64,000 bases of DNA from contig JAAXWQ010000009.1 of assembly GCA_013335115.1 (NCBI GenBank), forward strand, positions 1 through 64,000. Reading direction: 5' to 3'. The translations under genes were made by a program, and so were the position numbers. Source of the DNA: Chlorobiaceae bacterium (GTDB lineage: Bacteria > Bacteroidota > Chlorobiia > Chlorobiales > Chlorobiaceae). A model generated the notes under the pieces. That model ran no database searches and was not told the DNA's origin. It saw only the letters and a program-made list of their open reading frames with translations. Shown piece after piece: positions 6,977 to 32,429 of this stretch; the stretch's first letter is position 1; each line of letters begins with the position of its first letter.

Positions 6977-7951
6977 ATGAAGGAAGAACAAACCTCGACC
7001 GTATCGGAGGGCCGGGACATCCTGACGCAGGAAGCCGATGCGATCCGCAGAATGGCTGAGCGGCTCGACGTCAGCTTCGCCGAAGCCGTTGAACTCCTGC
7101 TCGCCTGCAAGGGCAAGCTCATCATCGCCGGCATGGGCAAGTCGGGCATCGTCGGCCAGAAGATCGCAGCGACCCTCTCCTCCACCGGCACCACCGCCAT
7201 CTCCCTCCACCCGGCCGACGCCGCGCACGGGGACCTCGGCGTCGTCGCCAGGAACGACGTAGTCATCTGCCTGTCGAAAAGCGGCATGACCGAGGAGCTC
7301 AACTTCATCATACCCGCGCTCCGGCAGCTCGAGGTTCCGATCATCGCCTTCACCGGTAACCTGCGTTCCTACCTTGCCCGCAACGCTGACGTCGTGCTTG
7401 ATGTCGGGGTCGAGCAGGAGGCTTGCCCCTACGACCTCGCCCCGACGACTTCGACCACGGCCATGCTCGCCATGGGTGACGCCCTGGCCATGTGCCTGAT
7501 GAAACGCAAGAACTTTACCGACCTCGAGTTCGCGCTTACCCACCCCAAAGGCTCCCTCGGCCGGCAGCTGACCATGAGGGTTGCGGATCTCATGGCCCGC
7601 GAGGAGGCACTCCCTCTGGTTGGCGAGGAGGCATCGATCGCCGACCTGATCCTCGAAATGACTTCGAAGCGTTTTGGCGTAAGCGGTGTAGTCGACCGTA
7701 ACGGCCGCCTCACCGGCATCTTCACCGACGGTGACCTGAGGCGACTGGTGCAGCAAGGCGGCGATTTCCTGGGCAGGATGGCCCGTGAGGTGATGACGCC
7801 CGATCCGAAGACCGTCCTCCCGGACCTGCTTGCCAAGCACTGCCTCGAAATCCTCGAAACCTACCGGATCACCCAGCTCATGGTGTGCGACGAAGATCGC
7901 CGGCCCGTCGGCCTGGTGCATATCCACGACCTGGTGAGCCTGGGAATGTAA
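6977..7951 (+). CDS. kdsD: arabinose-5-phosphate isomerase KdsD/KpsF
   Basis: Converts ribulose 5-phosphate to arabinose 5-phosphate, the first committed step of KDO synthesis for LPS. The 324 residues hold an N-terminal SIS sugar-isomerase domain (about 35-180) with KLIIAGMGKSGIVGQKIA and HGDLGVV, then two CBS domains (about 205-320; VADLMAREEALPLVG and MTPDPKTVLPDLLA). Length and order match KdsD. ATG 6977 is preceded by AAGGGA at good spacing. The gene is followed by the first nonamer inverted-arm element and a strong bidirectional terminator, across which it converges on sucD. Confidence 0.93.
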   Translation: MKEEQTSTVSEGRDILTQEADAIRRMAERLDVSFAEAVELLLACKGKLIIAGMGKSGIVGQKIAATLSSTGTTAISLHPADAAHGDLGVVARNDVVICLSKSGMTEELNFIIPALRQLEVPIIAFTGNLRSYLARNADVVLDVGVEQEACPYDLAPTTSTTAMLAMGDALAMCLMKRKNFTDLEFALTHPKGSLGRQLTMRVADLMAREEALPLVGEEASIADLILEMTSKRFGVSGVVDRNGRLTGIFTDGDLRRLVQQGGDFLGRMAREVMTPDPKTVLPDLLAKHCLEILETYRITQLMVCDEDRRPVGLVHIHDLVSLGM

Positions 7952-8065
7952 GAAAAGGACATAAGGGACTGAAGGGACCGCAAGGACATTAGGGTAAGGA
8001 GTCCTGCTTCCAACGTCTTCACCCTGCTGTCCCTTAAGTCCCAGCCGTCTTTTAAGTCCTTTTCC
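7952..8065. repeat. nonamer inverted-arm element, copy 1
   Basis: The left arm has GGAC cores at 7957, 7966, 7975 and 7984, then AGGGT at 7991. The right arm has ACCCT at 8021, then GTCC at 8029 and 8038, GTC at 8047 and GTCC at 8056. Core spacing is exactly 9 nt in both arms, and the arms are reverse complements at the cores but differ in the 4-5 nt linkers. The loop holds CAACGTCTTCA (8011-8021). It starts immediately after the kdsD stop. Two more copies occur at 23.8 and 31.1 kb, also between convergent genes. Confidence 0.85.
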
Positions 8066-8070
8066 TGAAA

Positions 8071-8102
8071 GCAAAAAGAGCGCCCGATGGCGCTCTTTTT
8101 GC
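8071..8102. terminator. bidirectional intrinsic terminator between kdsD and sucD
   Basis: GCAAAAAGAGCGCC pairs perfectly with GGCGCTCTTTTTGC around CGAT. The A/T tracts in the stem give a U-run in either direction, so it can end both the kdsD and the sucD transcripts. Confidence 0.9.
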
Positions 8103-8122: not shown

Positions 8123-9025
<903 letters not shown>

Positions 9026-20441: not shown

Positions 20442-20483
20442 ATTATCCATTATCCATTATCCATTATCCATTATCCATTATCC
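20442..20483. repeat. six tandem copies of the heptamer ATTATCC
   Basis: ATTATCC repeats exactly six times from 20442 to 20483 and then degenerates to ATTGTC. The array sits in the intergenic region 70 bp before the phosphohexomutase start and is AT-rich against GC-rich surroundings. On the other strand the unit reads GGATAAT. Copy number may vary between strains by replication slippage. Confidence 0.95.
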
Positions 20484-20553
20484 ATTGTCAACTTATTATA
20501 TTACCCCCCATCATGAATAATTCCCCTACCATCAACAGCAAACCCTCGCAAGC

Positions 20554-22002
20554 ATGAGTCTGATGATCAGCGTTTCCGGCATCCGGGGAGTCGTCGGCAA
20601 AAGCCTGACCCCGGAAAACCTGACGGCATTCACCATGGCGTTCGCCGCCTGGACATCCCGCCGGAAGCGGGCCCGCGGCGGGGAGGATGCCCTCGATAAA
20701 CCCAGGATCGTCATCGGTAGGGACACCCGCCCCACCGGCGCGCTCATCACCGAGCTGGTCTCGAGCACCCTCGCGCTCTGCGGATGCGATGTCGTCGACC
20801 TCGGCATGGCGACCACCCCGACCGTGGAACTCGCCACGGTGGGAGAACAGGCCGACGGAGGTCTGATCGTCACGGCATCCCACAACCCGGTCGAATGGAA
20901 CGCGCTGAAGATGCTCGATGAAAAGGGCGAATTCCTGCTCGCCGCCGATGTCGAACTGCTGCTCGAGATCGCCCGTGACCGCGCCTTCGAGCCTGCCGGG
21001 TGGGAAAGGATCGGCAGCATAGCCTCGAACATATCCTACGACCCGAGGCACATCGAAAGCATACTCAAGCTCCCCTGCATCGACCGTAACCTCATCGCAG
21101 GTATGGGTTTCCGCGTCCTGGTCGACGGAGTCGAAGGGGCCGGTTCGTTCGTGCTCCCCGAGCTCTGCCGCCGACTCGGCATCGCCGAGGTCAAGACCAT
21201 CGCCTGCCAGGGCACCGGCATTTTCCCGCGCAACCCGGAACCCGTCGAGGAGAACCTGAGGGAGACCATGGAGATCCTTCGCCGCGAGAGTTGCGACTTC
21301 GGGATCATCGTCGACCCCGACGTCGACCGACTGGCCCTTGTCTGCCAGGACGGCACCCTTTTCGGGGAGGAGTATACCCTGGTCGCCTGCGCCGACTTCT
21401 ACCTCCGCCATCGCCCGGGACCGGTCGTCAACAACCTCTCAAGCAGCCGCGCGCTGTCGGATATCGCCAGGAAGCATGGCGTCGAATGCTTCAGCGCAAA
21501 AGTCGGGGAGGCCAACGTGTGCGAAGTCATGAAGGAAAAAGGGGCCACCATAGGCGGTGAAGGCAACGGCGGCGTCATCCTCCCCGAGCTGCACTACGGC
21601 CGCAACGCCCTTGTGGGCACCGCACTTTTCGTGCAGGCGTTCGCCGAATGGAAAACCACGAACGGCGGAGGAACGCTTTCGGAGTTCCGCCGAACCTTCC
21701 CGAACTATTTCATGTCGAAGAGGAAGGTCGTGCTCGACCGTATGTCGAAAGAGCGCATCGAAGCCATTTTCTCGTCCGTCGCCGCGAACCATCCCGAGGC
21801 CTCGCCGACCAGGATCGACGGACTGAAGCTGGATTTCCCGGAAGGGTGGGTGCACATGCGCGCCTCGAACACCGAGCCGATCATCCGCATCTACACCGAA
21901 GCCGGCTCGAAAGAGCTTGCCGAGTCGCTGGCCGACCGCTTCATCGCCGGGATCGTGAGCGCCTCCGAAGCGCTCGACGCATCCGGGAAAGGGCAGGCCT
22001 GA
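20554..22002 (+). CDS. phosphohexomutase, probable phosphoglucosamine mutase
   Basis: A 482-residue alpha-D-phosphohexomutase. The landmarks are [15 protein letters not shown] at the N terminus, phosphoserine loop [17 protein letters not shown] (Ser about 110), metal loop [11 protein letters not shown], sugar loop GEGNGGVI and phosphate loop [12 protein letters not shown]. The GEGNGG and SGIRG forms fit the GlmM-like branch better than the 1.4-kb paralogue does, so conversion of glucosamine 6-phosphate to 1-phosphate is likely but not proven. It lies 4 bp before an ABC exporter gene. Confidence 0.85.
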
Positions 22003-22006
22003 GGGC

Positions 22007-23836
22007 ATGGGAACAACCGCAAAGCCGTCGGCCGGATTCCGTACGCAGCAGGACGAGACGCTCAGCGGAAAGCAGAAGGGCTCGCTCGACTTCTACATCG
22101 TCAAGCGGTTGCTCGGGTACATCACGCCATTCAAGGGGCTTGTCACGGGAGCGGTGCTCCTGACTGCCGGCGGTGCGATCCTGGGCCCCCTCAGGCCATG
22201 GCTCACGAGGATCGCGATCGACGACTACATCAGGCGGGGAGACCGCAACGGCCTGGCGATCATCAGCCTCGCCATGCTCGCCGTGGTCATCCTCGATGGC
22301 CTCAAGCAGTACCAGGCTACCTGGCTGACCGGGCTGATCGGCCAGAAAGCGGTGTTCAACCTGCGCATGGACATCTTCAGGCACCTGCAGCGCCTCCCCA
22401 TACGCTACTTCGACCGCAACCCGGCAGGCAGGCTCATCACCCGAACGACCAACGACGTCGAAGCGCTCGACGAGATGCTCTCCAGCGGCCTGATCACCAT
22501 TGTCGGCGACATCCTGCAGCTACTCTTCATCGTCGTCATGATGTTCGCGAGCGACTGGCGCCTCACCCTCGTCGTCCTGAGCGTCCTGCCGCTGATGATC
22601 TGGTCAACCATCGCCTTCAAGAACCGCGTCCGGCAAGCATTCCTCGACGTCAGGACGCAACTGGCGCGGCTCAACTCCTTTTTCCAGGAGCACATCACCG
22701 GCATGAAGGTCGTCCAGCTCTTCGGCAGGGAGGAGCACGAGTTCCGGCTCCACGCGGAAATCAACGCCGAACACCGGGACGCCAATATCCGGACCGTCTT
22801 CTACTTCTCCATCTACTACCCCCTGATCGAGTTCCTGAGCTCGGTCACCGCCGGGCTCGTCGTCTGGTACAGCGCGACAAGGATCCTGAAGGCCGACCTC
22901 ACCCTCGGGGTGGTGGTCTCGTTCGTGCAATACATCTGGCTCTTCTTCAGGCCGCTACAGCACCTGTCGGACCGCTTCAACATCCTCCAGACCGCCGTGA
23001 CCAGCTCCGACCGCATCTTCCGTCTGCTCGAGGAACCGGTGGAACCCGAACCCACCGGGAGCGCATCCAAAAGCATCGCGAAATTCACCGACCGAATCCT
23101 CTTCGACGACGTCTCCTTCGCCTACGACGGCGACAACCTCGTGCTCCGCGACATCTCCTTCGAAATCCTGGCCGGCCAGACCGTGGCCATCGTCGGCGCT
23201 ACCGGCAGCGGCAAGACGACCCTCATCAACATCCTCTCGAGGTTCTACCCGATACGCAACGGGCGGGTCACCATCGACGGTATCGACCTCGAGGATATCC
23301 CGGGCCCTGCGCTCCGCCGCCTCATCGGTGTGGTCATGCAGGAGGTCGTGCTCTTCTCGGGGACCGTGCGTGAAAACCTCCGCTTCGGCGACCCGTCGAT
23401 CCCGGATGATCGCATCAGGGAGGCCTCGCGTATCGTCGGCGCGGACCGCTTCATCGAAAAGCTGCCCGGAGGCTACGACTACCGGATCAGGGAAAACGGT
23501 TCGGGGCTTTCGGTCGGCCAGAAGCAGCTCATCGCCTTCGTCAGGGCCCTGCTCTACAACCCCGACATCCTCGTGCTCGACGAGGCGACCAGTTCGGTCG
23601 ACACGGAGACCGAATCGCTCATCGAACAAGCCACCGACCGGCTCATGAAGCACCGCACCTCGATCATCATCGCCCATCGCCTCTCGACCGTGCAGCATGC
23701 CGACCTGATCATCGTACTGCACAAAGGCACCATCCGTGAAACCGGCACCCACCAGGAACTCCTCGCCCGCCGCGGACTCTACCATAAACTCTACCTCCTC
23801 CAGCACCCGGAGAGGAGCAGGACCGAGGGGGCTTAA
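22007..23836 (+). CDS. ABC exporter, fused permease and ATPase (MsbA-like)
   Basis: A 609-residue half-transporter that should work as a homodimer. Residues ~30-330 form six membrane helices (ITPFKGLVTGAVLLTAGGAI onward) with the type IV exporter coupling region RYFDRNPAGRLITRTTNDVEAL. The ATPase carries Walker A VGATGSGKTTL (about 398-408), signature LSVGQKQ, Walker B ILVLDEATSSVDTE and switch His IIAHRLST. The family moves lipids, lipid A core or drugs; the substrate is not fixed by sequence. The second nonamer element starts right after its stop. Confidence 0.92.
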   Translation: MGTTAKPSAGFRTQQDETLSGKQKGSLDFYIVKRLLGYITPFKGLVTGAVLLTAGGAILGPLRPWLTRIAIDDYIRRGDRNGLAIISLAMLAVVILDGLKQYQATWLTGLIGQKAVFNLRMDIFRHLQRLPIRYFDRNPAGRLITRTTNDVEALDEMLSSGLITIVGDILQLLFIVVMMFASDWRLTLVVLSVLPLMIWSTIAFKNRVRQAFLDVRTQLARLNSFFQEHITGMKVVQLFGREEHEFRLHAEINAEHRDANIRTVFYFSIYYPLIEFLSSVTAGLVVWYSATRILKADLTLGVVVSFVQYIWLFFRPLQHLSDRFNILQTAVTSSDRIFRLLEEPVEPEPTGSASKSIAKFTDRILFDDVSFAYDGDNLVLRDISFEILAGQTVAIVGATGSGKTTLINILSRFYPIRNGRVTIDGIDLEDIPGPALRRLIGVVMQEVVLFSGTVRENLRFGDPSIPDDRIREASRIVGADRFIEKLPGGYDYRIRENGSGLSVGQKQLIAFVRALLYNPDILVLDEATSSVDTETESLIEQATDRLMKHRTSIIIAHRLSTVQHADLIIVLHKGTIRETGTHQELLARRGLYHKLYLLQHPERSRTEGA

Positions 23837-24022
23837 GAAAGAAAAAAGGACTGAAAGGACGAAAAGGACAGCAAGGACTACAGGGTTAAGAAAACCTTCC
23901 CCTCTTCCCTGATGTCCCTACTGTCCCTACTGTCCCTACTGTCCCTGCTGTCCCTGCTGTCCCTGCTGTCCCTGCTGTCCCTGCTGTCCCTGCTGTCCCT
24001 GCTGTCCTTTCAATTCTTTTCT
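23837..24022. repeat. nonamer inverted-arm element, copy 2, with expanded right arm
   Basis: The left arm has GGAC cores at 23848, 23857, 23866 and 23875, then CAGGG at 23881. The right arm is an uninterrupted array from 23914 to 24003 of ten 9-bp units, three GTCCCTACT followed by seven GTCCCTGCT, ending with one more GTCC. Left-arm spacing is also 9 nt. The array has grown well beyond the four cores of the left arm. It fills the gap between the converging ABC exporter and FtsX-like genes. Confidence 0.92.
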
Positions 24023-25291
24023 TCAAACATTCGCCTCCCGCAGCACCTTGACCGGCTCCAGCCTGGCGGCCCTGGCCGAGGGTAATGCGGCAGCAATGGT
24101 GCTGATGGCTACGGTGACGGCGATCACCAGGAAGAAGTACCACGGGTTCCACGACATGGCAAAGCCGGTCTTGGTGAGCGGCCCCTGGGAGCTTTCGATG
24201 GGCAGGTTGGCAAGGAGGCTGATCGAGCCTATCGACAACAGCCCGCCCAGCAGCGCCCCTCCGAGCCCGACCAGGAACCCTTCGAAGACGAACAGCCCGA
24301 CCATTTGCACCGACGAGAAGCCGAAAGACTTCATAATGGCAATGTCGCGGCTCTTCTCGAACACCGTGGTCACAAGGATGTTGGCCACACCGAACCCCGA
24401 CACGACGCCGACGAAGGCCACGAGGGAAAAGACGATGTAGCCGATCCTGGCGAACAGCATCAGCACGCTCTCGTTCTCCTTCTGCCAGGTCACGCAGTTA
24501 TAGCCGGTCATCCTCTGGAGGCTCGCGGCAAGGGGGGCGTTGGCGAGCGGATCGCGCACCTTCAGGGCGATGCCTGTCACCTTGTTGGCCGGGAAGCCCT
24601 CGAGGATCTGGGCGAACTTGAGCGACGAGACCACGCTGTTGTCAGCCGCGTTCACCCCGGTGAAGAACACCCCGGCTACCTTGCACTGGTGGCTCTTGCC
24701 ATCCGTCGAAATCACCGTCACCGCGTCGTTCAGCCCGATTTCGAGGTCCCTCGAAACGGTCCTCCCCACCAGGATCGCATCGGGGCTCTTCCTGAACAGG
24801 GTAAGGTCACCCGAAAGCAGGCTCCGGCCGATATGGGTGATCGCCTCCTCCCTTTCGACCAGCACCCCCTTGACCAGCAGCGGCTGGTTCCGGCTGCCCT
24901 TCACCGCCATGACCTGCGACTCGACATACGGCGAGGCGGCAAGCACCTGGCCGCGGAACTCCGGCGTGGCGAGGATGTCGAGGATCTGCCCGAAATTGCG
25001 CACCTGCTCCCGGTCGTCCTTCCCGATATGGTCCTCGACGAAGGAACGCTGCCCTGGCCTTGAGCCGGCAATCAGGTCGACCGGTATGGGGTCGAGCTTC
25101 TCCCCCTTCACGGTGATGTGCGGGGCGACGTCGACGATGGTCTCGGAGAAGGAGTCGAGCAGCCCCCTGGTCAGCGAAATGGTGGTGATGAGCACCATCG
25201 TGCTGACCGCGACGCCCGTCATGGTCGTCAGGGTCTGCCGCTTGCGGCCGAGAATATGCCTGATGGCGATATCGATGAGGGTTCTGAACAT
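24023..25291 (-). CDS. FtsX-like ABC transporter permease (MacB/LolE type)
   Basis: A 422-residue membrane protein with the MacB/LolCE layout. One N-terminal membrane helix (about 18-40; [20 protein letters not shown]) is followed by a periplasmic domain of ~230 residues and three C-terminal helices (about 285-410) containing [21 protein letters not shown], the FtsX-family coupling segment. The tail [18 protein letters not shown] is characteristic. Such permeases extract lipoproteins or transmit force with an ATPase partner; no ATPase gene is adjacent, so partner and substrate are unknown. It is divergent from fni. Confidence 0.88.
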
Positions 25292-30357: not shown

Positions 30358-31104
30358 ATGAGCCTCGCCGTCGTCATCATGGCCGCCGGGAAAGGGACCC
30401 GGATGAAATCGGACCTTCCCAAGGTCCTCCATCCGGCCAACGGCCATCCGGTAGTCGAGTATGTCATCCGGAAATCGCTGTCGCTTGAACCCGAATCGAT
30501 CGTGCTGGTCGTCGGGCACCAGGCCGAGCTGGTGCGCCAGGCCACATCGCACCTCCCCGTCTCCTATGCGCTCCAGCAACCGCAGCTCGGCACCGGGCAT
30601 GCCGTCATGCAGACCGAACCGGCACTGAATCAGTTCGATGGCGAGGTGATCATCCTCTCCGGCGACGCCCCCCTCTTCACCACCACGACCCTCCGCGCAC
30701 TCGTCGATTTCCACCGTTCCAGGAACGCGGTGGCCACCGTACTGACCGCCAACATGGACGACCCGACCGGCTACGGCAGGGTCATCAGGAACCAGGGAGG
30801 AGAGGAGGTACTCAGGATCGTCGAGCAGAAGGACGCCTCCGACGAAGAGAAGGCCGTCACCGAGATAAATTCAGGAGTCTACGTCTTCAATGCACGCGAG
30901 CTCTTCGCCGCCCTCAAGTCCATCACCAACACCAACGCCCAGCAGGAGTACTACCTTACCGACGTTTTCGGCATCTGCTTCGGCAAAGGCCTTAAAGTGT
31001 GCGCCTTCAAAGTCGGCGACCCCAACGAGATCCGGGGCATCAACACCCCTGAACAGCTCCGTGAAGCCGAACTGCTCCTGCAGACCGAGCAGTACGCTTC
31101 TTAA
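30358..31104 (+). CDS. GlmU-like nucleotidyltransferase lacking the acetyltransferase domain
   Basis: A 248-residue sugar-1-phosphate nucleotidyltransferase. The N-terminal VVIMAAGKGTRMKSDLPKVLH, QPQLGTGHAVMQ, SGDAPLF and YGRVIRNQGGEEVLRIVEQKDA match the uridyltransferase half of GlmU, which makes UDP-GlcNAc from GlcNAc-1-phosphate. The left-handed beta-helix acetyltransferase (about 200 further residues in full GlmU) is absent, and the DNA after the stop is the third nonamer element, so it is not a simple frameshift. The acetylation step must be done by another protein. Confidence 0.88.
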   Translation: MSLAVVIMAAGKGTRMKSDLPKVLHPANGHPVVEYVIRKSLSLEPESIVLVVGHQAELVRQATSHLPVSYALQQPQLGTGHAVMQTEPALNQFDGEVIILSGDAPLFTTTTLRALVDFHRSRNAVATVLTANMDDPTGYGRVIRNQGGEEVLRIVEQKDASDEEKAVTEINSGVYVFNARELFAALKSITNTNAQQEYYLTDVFGICFGKGLKVCAFKVGDPNEIRGINTPEQLREAELLLQTEQYAS

Positions 31105-31256
31105 GAAAAGGACATAAGGGACTCAAAGGACATCAGGGACGAAGAAGAAGAGCGAGTCTCGAAGCAACGTCTTCAGCAGGGACAACAATGTGAAGAGTCT
31201 TTACCCTGATGTCCTTGCTGTCCTTGCTGTCCTTGCTGTCCCAAATCTCCCTTTCT
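31105..31256. repeat. nonamer inverted-arm element, copy 3
   Basis: The left arm has GGAC cores at 31110, 31119, 31128 and 31137. The right arm begins with CCCTGAT and has GTCC at 31211, 31220, 31229 and 31238, all spaced 9 nt. The roughly 70-nt loop contains CAACGTCTTCA (31165-31175), also found in the loop of copy 1. It fills the gap between the converging glmU-like and phosphofructokinase genes. Confidence 0.85.
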
Positions 31257-32429
31257 TCAGTACAAAAACATCGGCTTGCCCAGCACGCTCCTCATCTTCG
31301 ACCGGTAGTGCCGGATATCATAGAGCTCGTTGATGTCGACCTGCTTGCTGTTGGCTGAGACATCCTTGAGCGGCAGGTAGGAGTAGACGCCATCCTGGAG
31401 GGCAACCATCACCCCGAACACCCCCTTCTTTATCAGTTCGACCGAGAGCTGGGCAAAATTGAAGCCAACCATCAGGTCCAGGGCGTCAGGGATGCCTGAC
31501 CGCATCAGGTAGCCGAGCGGCTGGCAGATCACATCCTGGCCGGTCAGCATGGCTATGGTCTCCCGGGTGAGCTGGCCGATGCCTGCCGGCTGGGACCCAT
31601 TTTCGTCGTAACGGTGGCCGCAGTATTCGATCATCTTGCTGCCGATCATCCTGGCGCCTTCGCTGATGGCGACCATGGCGTAACTGCTCGCGTTCGACTT
31701 CTTGTCCTTGGTGAGGTACTCGGCAAGCGTTTCAGGGTCGAACGGCACTTCCGGGATGAGCGCCCGGTCGACGCCGGCAAGGTAGGAGCTGATCAGGCAG
31801 GTCTCACCGGTGCTCCGTCCGAAAAGCTCGACAATGGTGATTCTTTCGTGGGATCCCGAGCTGGTGCGGAGCTGGTGGATGTACTGGACGCTCCTGGTGA
31901 CCGCCGTGCCGAATCCGATGCAGTAGTCGGAGCCGAAGACATCGTTGTCCATTGTTTTCGGGATGGCGATCACCTTGACGCCGCACTCCGAGAGGTGGTG
32001 GGCATAGCTGATGGTATCGTCGCCGCCGATCACGATGATCACGTCGATGCCAAGGCTCTCGATGCTCCGGATAACCTGGGCCGTAAGATCGTAATTCCCG
32101 GACTGGTGGAGCCCTGCCCGCTTCACGACCGAAGAGTTGCGAAGGAATGGCGGGATTTCGTTCTTCCTGAGGTTTCCGGGGTGGATGCGGCTGGTATGCA
32201 GCAGGGTGCCGCCGGTACGGTCGATCCTCCGCACAAGTTCGACGCCAAGGTCGAGGACATGCTCTTCCCTGCTTCCAGGATCATCGGGATTGAATGCCAA
32301 CAGGCCGTTCCAGCCTCGGCGGATGCCCGTGACCGTGCAGGACTCTTCCGCCCCAATCGTCACGATGGCCTTGATGCATGCGTTGATGCCGGGCGCATCG
32401 CCCCCGCCTGTCAGCACGCCGATATTCAT
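31257..32429 (-). CDS. 6-phosphofructokinase, pyrophosphate-type by active-site residues
   Basis: A 390-residue PFK family enzyme with the N-terminal phosphate loop [16 protein letters not shown]. The phosphoryl-donor site reads VIGGDDTIS, with Asp where ATP enzymes have Gly, and the catalytic loop reads IPKTMDNDV, with Lys instead of the Gly of ATP-PFK PGTIDND. This Asp/Lys pair is the known mark of pyrophosphate-dependent PFK, which is reversible. Further sites are [10 protein letters not shown] and ISEGARM. The gene is monocistronic and converges on the glmU-like gene. Confidence 0.88.

Follow-up and report, generated by a model that had tools for sequence, protein, structure and literature searches.

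Nine-nucleotide-phased GGAC arrays as candidate terminator-like hairpin elements at gene 3' ends in Chlorobiaceae

Bidirectional Rho-independent terminators place between convergent genes a hairpin that reads the same on both strands; ordinary terminator hairpins are under little sequence constraint and have no internal periodicity. REP/BIME/REPIN sequences are dispersed inverted repeats at gene 3' ends with lineage-specific sequence types, and short tandem repeats (VNTRs) form periodic arrays of variable unit number. In Neisseria and the Pasteurellaceae, pairs of uptake signals (DUS/USS) with species dialects lie within terminators, and terminators whose stems are formed by inverted short motifs are known from such signals (PMC1852404). 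The elements described here, which lie at gene 3' ends in a genome of the Chlorobiaceae and in its relatives, resemble each of these systems in part. Like bidirectional terminators, they can form a hairpin between convergent genes with the same reading on both strands, and in the genome that holds our window (G000) an A-tract often precedes the stem and a T-tract often follows it; unlike such terminators, their arms are phased at 9 nt, a GGAC core is nearly invariant, three of every nine positions are unpaired or randomly paired, and the U-tract is missing from many members in relatives. They share with REP/BIME/REPIN sequences their dispersal as inverted repeats at 3' ends and their lineage-specific types, but no association with RAYT was found for them, each arm is a tandem 9-nt array, and there is no palindrome of fixed length. 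Inverted short motifs form the stem and vary by species, as in USS/DUS pairs, but the element occupies tens of loci rather than a thousand or more, its motifs stand in tandem arrays, and one third of the unit is free. In contrast to short tandem repeats, with which they share a repeated period (here 9) and a variable unit number, three positions differ in almost every unit, six are conserved, and the arms are inverted. A search of the full-text literature, which covered few subscription journals and is thus a weak negative, returned no description of 9-nt-phased hexamer arrays with free triplets.

The window, that is, the whole stretch of DNA analysed, comprises 64,000 nt (C11:1-64000) of the 2.1-Mb G000 genome, which was compared with relatives G001-G060. 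Genes were called with a purpose-built dicodon model and were not taken from annotation. The three copies that the original prediction had located in the window are all present (Table 1), with GGAC cores in the left arms and GTCC cores in the right arms, and the 9-nt spacing is exact throughout, although some cores have decayed (GTCT at 8047 in copy 1 and the outermost right unit of copy 3). In the left arm of copy 1 a free triplet follows each GGAC core, and the base of the stem is formed by GAAAAGGAC...GTCCTTTTC. The separate canonical hairpin in this gap lies between copy 1 and the sucD-like gene and is kept in relatives. (The gene to the left of copy 1 has relatives in Chlorobaculum, Chlorobium and other Chlorobiaceae.)

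Table 1. Parts of the three copies, their flanking genes, and loci of a second dispersed repeat (positions are those of the window unless a contig is named).
Feature	Position	Strand	Description
Gene left of copy 1	6977..7951	+	SIS and CBS domains, KdsD-like
Copy 1 left arm	7957..7990	+	four GGAC cores (7957, 7966, 7975, 7984), 9-nt phase
Copy 1 loop region	7991..8028	.	
Copy 1 right arm	8029..8065	+	GTCC at 8029, 8038, 8056; GTCT at 8047; then TTTTCC
Canonical intrinsic terminator hairpin, separate from copy 1	8071..8102	.	AAAAAGAGCGCC..GGCGCTCTTTTT
Gene right of copy 1	8123..9025	-	succinyl-CoA ligase alpha-like
Gene left of copy 2	22007..23836	+	ABC transporter
Copy 2 left arm	23848..23881	+	four GGAC cores
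Copy 2 right arm	23905..24007	+	11 intact GTCC cores and one decayed inner unit
Gene right of copy 2	24023..25291	-	MacB/FtsX-type permease
Gene left of copy 3	30358..31104	+	nucleotidyltransferase, KdsB-like
Copy 3 left arm	31110..31143	+	four GGAC cores
Copy 3 right arm	31211..31250	+	four intact GTCC cores and one decayed outer unit
Gene right of copy 3	31257..32429	-	phosphofructokinase
Repeat of about 110 bp	C25:108100-108228 (L065)		further loci L074, L081, L171, L172, L188, L204

Core pairs in 9-nt phase are far more frequent than expected. GGACN5GGAC occurs 28 times in the window, compared with 3.7 +/- 1.8 times in shuffled sequence, and 0 of 100 shuffles reached 28. When core pairs were counted by spacing in the intergenic DNA of the window and of an independent 400 kb of contig C25, there were 48 pairs at 9 nt, 31 at 18 nt and 21 at 27 nt; every other spacing from 5 to 30 nt gave at most 5 pairs. 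The convergent gaps of the window show a lag-9 autocorrelation (z 12.7) that disappears once the three element gaps are removed. Across the 2.1 Mb of G000, searches with the triple-core pattern returned 64 matches, versus 13 for a reversed control, and searches with the inverted pattern returned 27, versus 1 for its control.

Read from the outside inward, an arm has the form (DD-GGAC-NNN)n, with 2 to 12 units per arm in G000 and about 3.8 on average across five genomes. Comparison within the genus shows that GGAC is nearly invariant, that NNN is close to random (about 1.3-2 bits per position for GGAC and about 0.1-0.65 for NNN in the five genomes), and that DD follows a genome-preferred "dialect". 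This dialect is AA/AG in G000, AT in G006 and mainly GT in G020; both AA/AG and GT are held by each of G009 and G019, and TG and TA also occur. The earlier description of the linkers as unlike one another is right for three of the five linker bases, but the last two are conserved within a genome (A and then A/G in G000). (Other 9-phased cores, GATCGGTC- and ATAGGTC-like, were seen by eye at orthologous gaps and lie outside the counts given here.) The order of the arms is one-sided: within the genus GGAC comes first in 515 matches and GTCC in 11 (overlapping matches counted), and the reversed arrangement was rejected. With GGAC first, both strands read purine-rich and then pyrimidine-rich.

Of the seven convergent gaps that had been noted in the window, three indeed carry an element (at least two core pairs), and none of the 48 tandem or seven divergent gaps does; the first cores of copies 1, 2 and 3 start 5, 11 and 5 nt past the stop codons, close by as predicted. 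The claim that the element occurs only between convergent genes is therefore correct for the window, but it fails genome-wide. (Counts for the whole of G000 come from pattern searches, and rates from stretches of sequence.) Of the 31 elements found outside genes in G000, 20 lie between convergent genes and 10 between tandem genes, one is at a contig end, and no divergent gap has any; isolated triple matches within genes (C1:141300, C19:1774, C25:262971) were set aside as coding. Genome-wide, then, the elements are not spread evenly over the types of gap. In a 400-kb sample chosen without regard to the element and restricted to gaps of at least 40 bp, it was present in 7/31 convergent, 1/144 tandem and 0/45 divergent gaps (Fisher p 4e-6). 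The median distance from the stop codon to the outermost core is 12 nt (81 two-armed elements, five genomes), and in the same five genomes two-armed elements of tandem gaps lie a median of 66 nt before the next start codon. The array overlaps or touches 11 of 130 facing gene ends in these genomes, which allows the stop codon to be provided by a linker, as with GGACtaaAAGGAC at C7:154403. Single-arm versions also exist in G000, in tandem gaps and in the sense orientation. The counts and the stop-codon distances indicate that the element belongs to gene 3' ends and not strictly to convergent gaps.

All three copies fold well, with energies of -50.8, -51.4 and -66.0 kcal/mol (z -5.6, -4.2 and -6.5) for copies 1, 2 and 3, respectively. 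For the 81 elements z averages about -5 on each strand, and in the predicted folds roughly two thirds of the cores pair with the opposite arm. Selection on the whole stem should leave the triplets of an element's two arms matched. However, when arms were swapped inside the same genome and dialect, the duplex energies of own and swapped arms did not differ (p 0.85), so that the covariation between arms that had been proposed as a test is absent at the free positions; in register, NNN pairing was 0.480 for own arms and 0.493 for swapped arms (p 0.78), and in G000 taken alone own arms were again no better paired than swapped ones (p 0.62). Nor are the lengths of an element's two arms correlated (Spearman -0.01). 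The dialect, in contrast to the triplets, is matched. Both arms have the same dialect in 7+7 of 15 elements in G009 (p 0.0012) and in 12+6 of 19 in G019 (p 0.00026), whereas in G020, where one dialect dominates, p is 0.19. Matched dialects together with unmatched triplets mean that six of the nine bases are matched and three are free. The suggestion of a folded form thus survives with a restriction: the fold scores, the polarity of 515 to 11 and the shared arm dialect bear it out, and the triplets do not.

Comparison of nine orthologous element pairs shows how the unit changes. DD has 13% substitutions, the loop 18% and the close flanks 15%; GGAC differs at 4.7% of positions and NNN at 32% (p 4e-15), as expected from the proposed selection on cores and spacing over linkers, although the core value is lowered because elements were picked for intact cores. 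The excess of NNN over loop substitutions (p 0.001) is free of this bias but depends on the alignment. At some orthologous gaps the entire element has a different dialect in both arms: L301 in G009 is AR/AR and L334 in G020 is GT/GT, with flanks about 89% identical, and L316 and L326 of G006 have AT where G000 and G019 have AR. The gaps of copies 1, 2 and 3 are occupied in many species of the genus, in varying dialects, and element-free orthologous gaps have a canonical terminator, a repeat of another kind or no recognisable feature; the flanks of occupied and unoccupied gaps are too different to give exact element boundaries. Outside the genus, the inverted pattern was found in 2 of 16 sampled genomes of another genus of the family, and in none beyond the family.

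Variability of this kind might be expected of a selfish or neutral satellite: a 9-nt unit would multiply through slippage and inverted duplication and persist in 3' gaps alone, where it does no harm. In the right arm of copy 2 the units are near-identical (period 9, 11.3 copies, 96% match), which suggests a recent expansion, and the variable number of units and the frequent gain and loss at orthologous gaps point the same way. Yet a plain satellite seems quite unlikely, because the core is so much better conserved among orthologues than NNN, the loop or the flanks, because the polarity is one-sided, and because the arms keep matching dialects though their NNN are unmatched. Slippage plus inversion, as the original prediction had put it, suits the right arm of copy 2 and does not suit arms whose triplets all differ.

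A family of fast-evolving, bidirectional, terminator-like RNA hairpin elements at gene 3' ends is the reading that we favour, though it could as readily prove wrong as right. In such a model, each arm would be a row of 9-nt DD-GGAC-NNN units, usually starting within about 25 nt of a stop codon, and its partner the same kind of array in inverted orientation, so that RNA from either gene would fold into a long imperfect hairpin of 6-bp DDGGAC blocks separated by free triplets and in many cases closed by an A-tract opposite a U-tract. This hairpin would most likely end, protect or insulate the facing transcripts, keeping convergent genes from mutual read-through. Arms would lengthen or shorten by 9-nt slippage and NNN would drift freely, with the six-base part retained by selection for pairing and probably also for sequence.

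Several observations count for terminator-like hairpins. The location at gene 3' ends and the lack of elements in divergent gaps do so, as do the GGAC-first polarity, the fold scores, the shared dialect of the arms and the difference between core and NNN substitution. Further support comes from a T-rich 3' flank (T makes up 0.43 of the 12 nt beyond the outermost GTCC, compared with 0.25 of convergent gaps as a whole), from canonical terminators, which were seen in 0/7 convergent gaps with the element and 10/21 without it in the 400-kb sample (p 0.03; 28 gaps only), and from several relatives that have no array in the copy-1 gap and have a plain canonical terminator there instead (L073, L080, L087, L091). 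Other observations count against this reading. U-runs are present at 23/36 ends in G000 and at 14/38, 9/30, 6/32 (G020) and 3/26 (G006) in relatives (control 7%), and are thus uncommon where the dialect is GT or AT. Roughly one element gap in five, that of copy 1 included, also has a canonical terminator; own arms pair no better than swapped arms; and single arms occur in tandem gaps. Finally, a plain terminator hairpin needs neither an invariant GGAC nor a 9-nt phase, and since the hairpin model leaves both unexplained, there is room for a sequence reader.

One such possibility is that the hexamer arrays are binding sites for a putative sequence-specific RNA- or DNA-binding protein at gene 3' ends, with the hairpin secondary and the dialects reflecting changes of reader. 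The near-invariance of GGAC across dialects and loci, next to a nearly random NNN, exceeds what pairing alone requires, and a phase fixed at 9 nt, single arms in the sense orientation and uncorrelated arm lengths also count for such sites. We nevertheless consider this unlikely, since two dialects coexist in G009 and in G019 with arms matched per element, which is easier to reconcile with local pairing than with a single reader for the whole genome. CsrA, the obvious GGA-binding candidate, is absent from five genomes; its family, PF02599, was found in three control genomes, and a CsrA target array or sponge was rejected. No candidate sequence reader was found. A broader proposal, which we advance tentatively and regard as somewhat improbable, is that the elements form a new 3'-end class read by phase, with hexamers every 9 nt, free triplets, arm-matched dialects, possibly a co-evolving trans-acting factor, and rewriting of the element as a whole at the same junctions in different species. 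Sequence, phase and polarity are constrained, yet a third of the stem can vary freely, and the hexamer differs by species but matches between arms; this raises the question of whether the 9-nt step is read by RNA polymerase, by an RNA-binding protein, or by RNA pairing only, for which the dialects at the same gene junctions provide a natural series of tests. Terminator annotation in green sulfur bacteria also calls for caution, as a simple short-hairpin search in five genomes placed no canonical terminator near 63/81 elements.

Dispersed inverted doublets at gene 3' ends with lineage-specific sequence types would also be expected of REP/REPIN-type extragenic palindromes, which a RAYT (Y1) transposase mobilises in trans, and Y1 transposases are present in 7/9 genomes tested. 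This origin is very improbable, because the inverted 9-nt array was beside 0/20 Y1 transposase loci examined, with a lone core pair at 2/20, one of them inside the called transposase gene. Arrays are indeed few in the two genomes without a Y1 gene (G003, G016), but they are also few in G011, where such a gene is present. Two Y1 (RAYT-type) transposase genes of G000 (L347 at C22:1890 and L357 at C21:104318) are flanked instead by GGGGACGT...ACGTCCCC ends; these have GGAC/GTCC in common with the 9-nt unit but are not phased arrays.

Species dialects and inverted pairs in 3' gaps recall the DNA-uptake signals of Neisseria and Haemophilus, which are concentrated in terminator hairpins, and Chlorobaculum tepidum is transformable. 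Uptake signals, however, are not known to form tandem arrays. A role of this kind is highly doubtful here: G000 has only about 31 elements, against the at least 1,000 uptake signals that genomes generally carry (PMC1852404). Taken together, the REP/RAYT, uptake-sequence, CsrA and plain-satellite readings fit worse than a terminator-like hairpin.

Further candidates were also rejected. A period of 9 equals three codons, but the triplets are often TGA or TAA and the arms hold stop codons, which argues against protein coding. A G-quadruplex, judged from sequence only, would need no phase, and a run of three G is not kept (the AAGGAC and GTGGAC dialects have two). An ordinary short tandem repeat does not account for the low information of NNN beside that of the core, and near-identical units are confined to the right arm of copy 2 and that of copy 3. 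No Rfam family scored above its gathering threshold for the element, and only two tRNAs were found in the window.

Other repeats occur in the same kinds of gap. The second dispersed repeat of Table 1 (GTGAGCGGTTCGAGGGCAAGGCGGACGGAGCGCAGAAACCGGAATGTAC...) lies in convergent gaps of several species and sometimes stands where an arm of the 9-nt element would be. Gaps orthologous to those of copies 2 and 3 are filled in some relatives by a near-perfect palindrome, GGGGTCAGGCCTTGCAAA...TTTGCAAGGCCTGACCCC (L173, L188, L201). At C1:173292-173651 of G020 the loop of an element contains an insertion of roughly 140 bp (TTACTCCGGCGACAATAAATCGC...GTAATAA), which the G009 orthologue L306 lacks. The right end of C23 (L064) and the left end of C14 (L056) share one 9-nt element, whose loop holds a canonical terminator; this is either a duplicated locus or an assembly break at the repeat. 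The window also contains a perfect intergenic heptamer array (ATTATCC x6.4, 20442-20486) upstream of the gene at 20554; similar ATTATCC/GGATAAT arrays are present at L062 and at about 271,600 of C25, and lags 7 and 14 are raised in the convergent gaps of C25. At L047 (C1:154850-155450), about 14 copies of a unit of roughly 40 bp (GATATCGGTAGCTCGGATGTTAAGCCCCGGAGGGGCGT) occupy a convergent gap, where they adjoin a single right arm of the 9-nt element.
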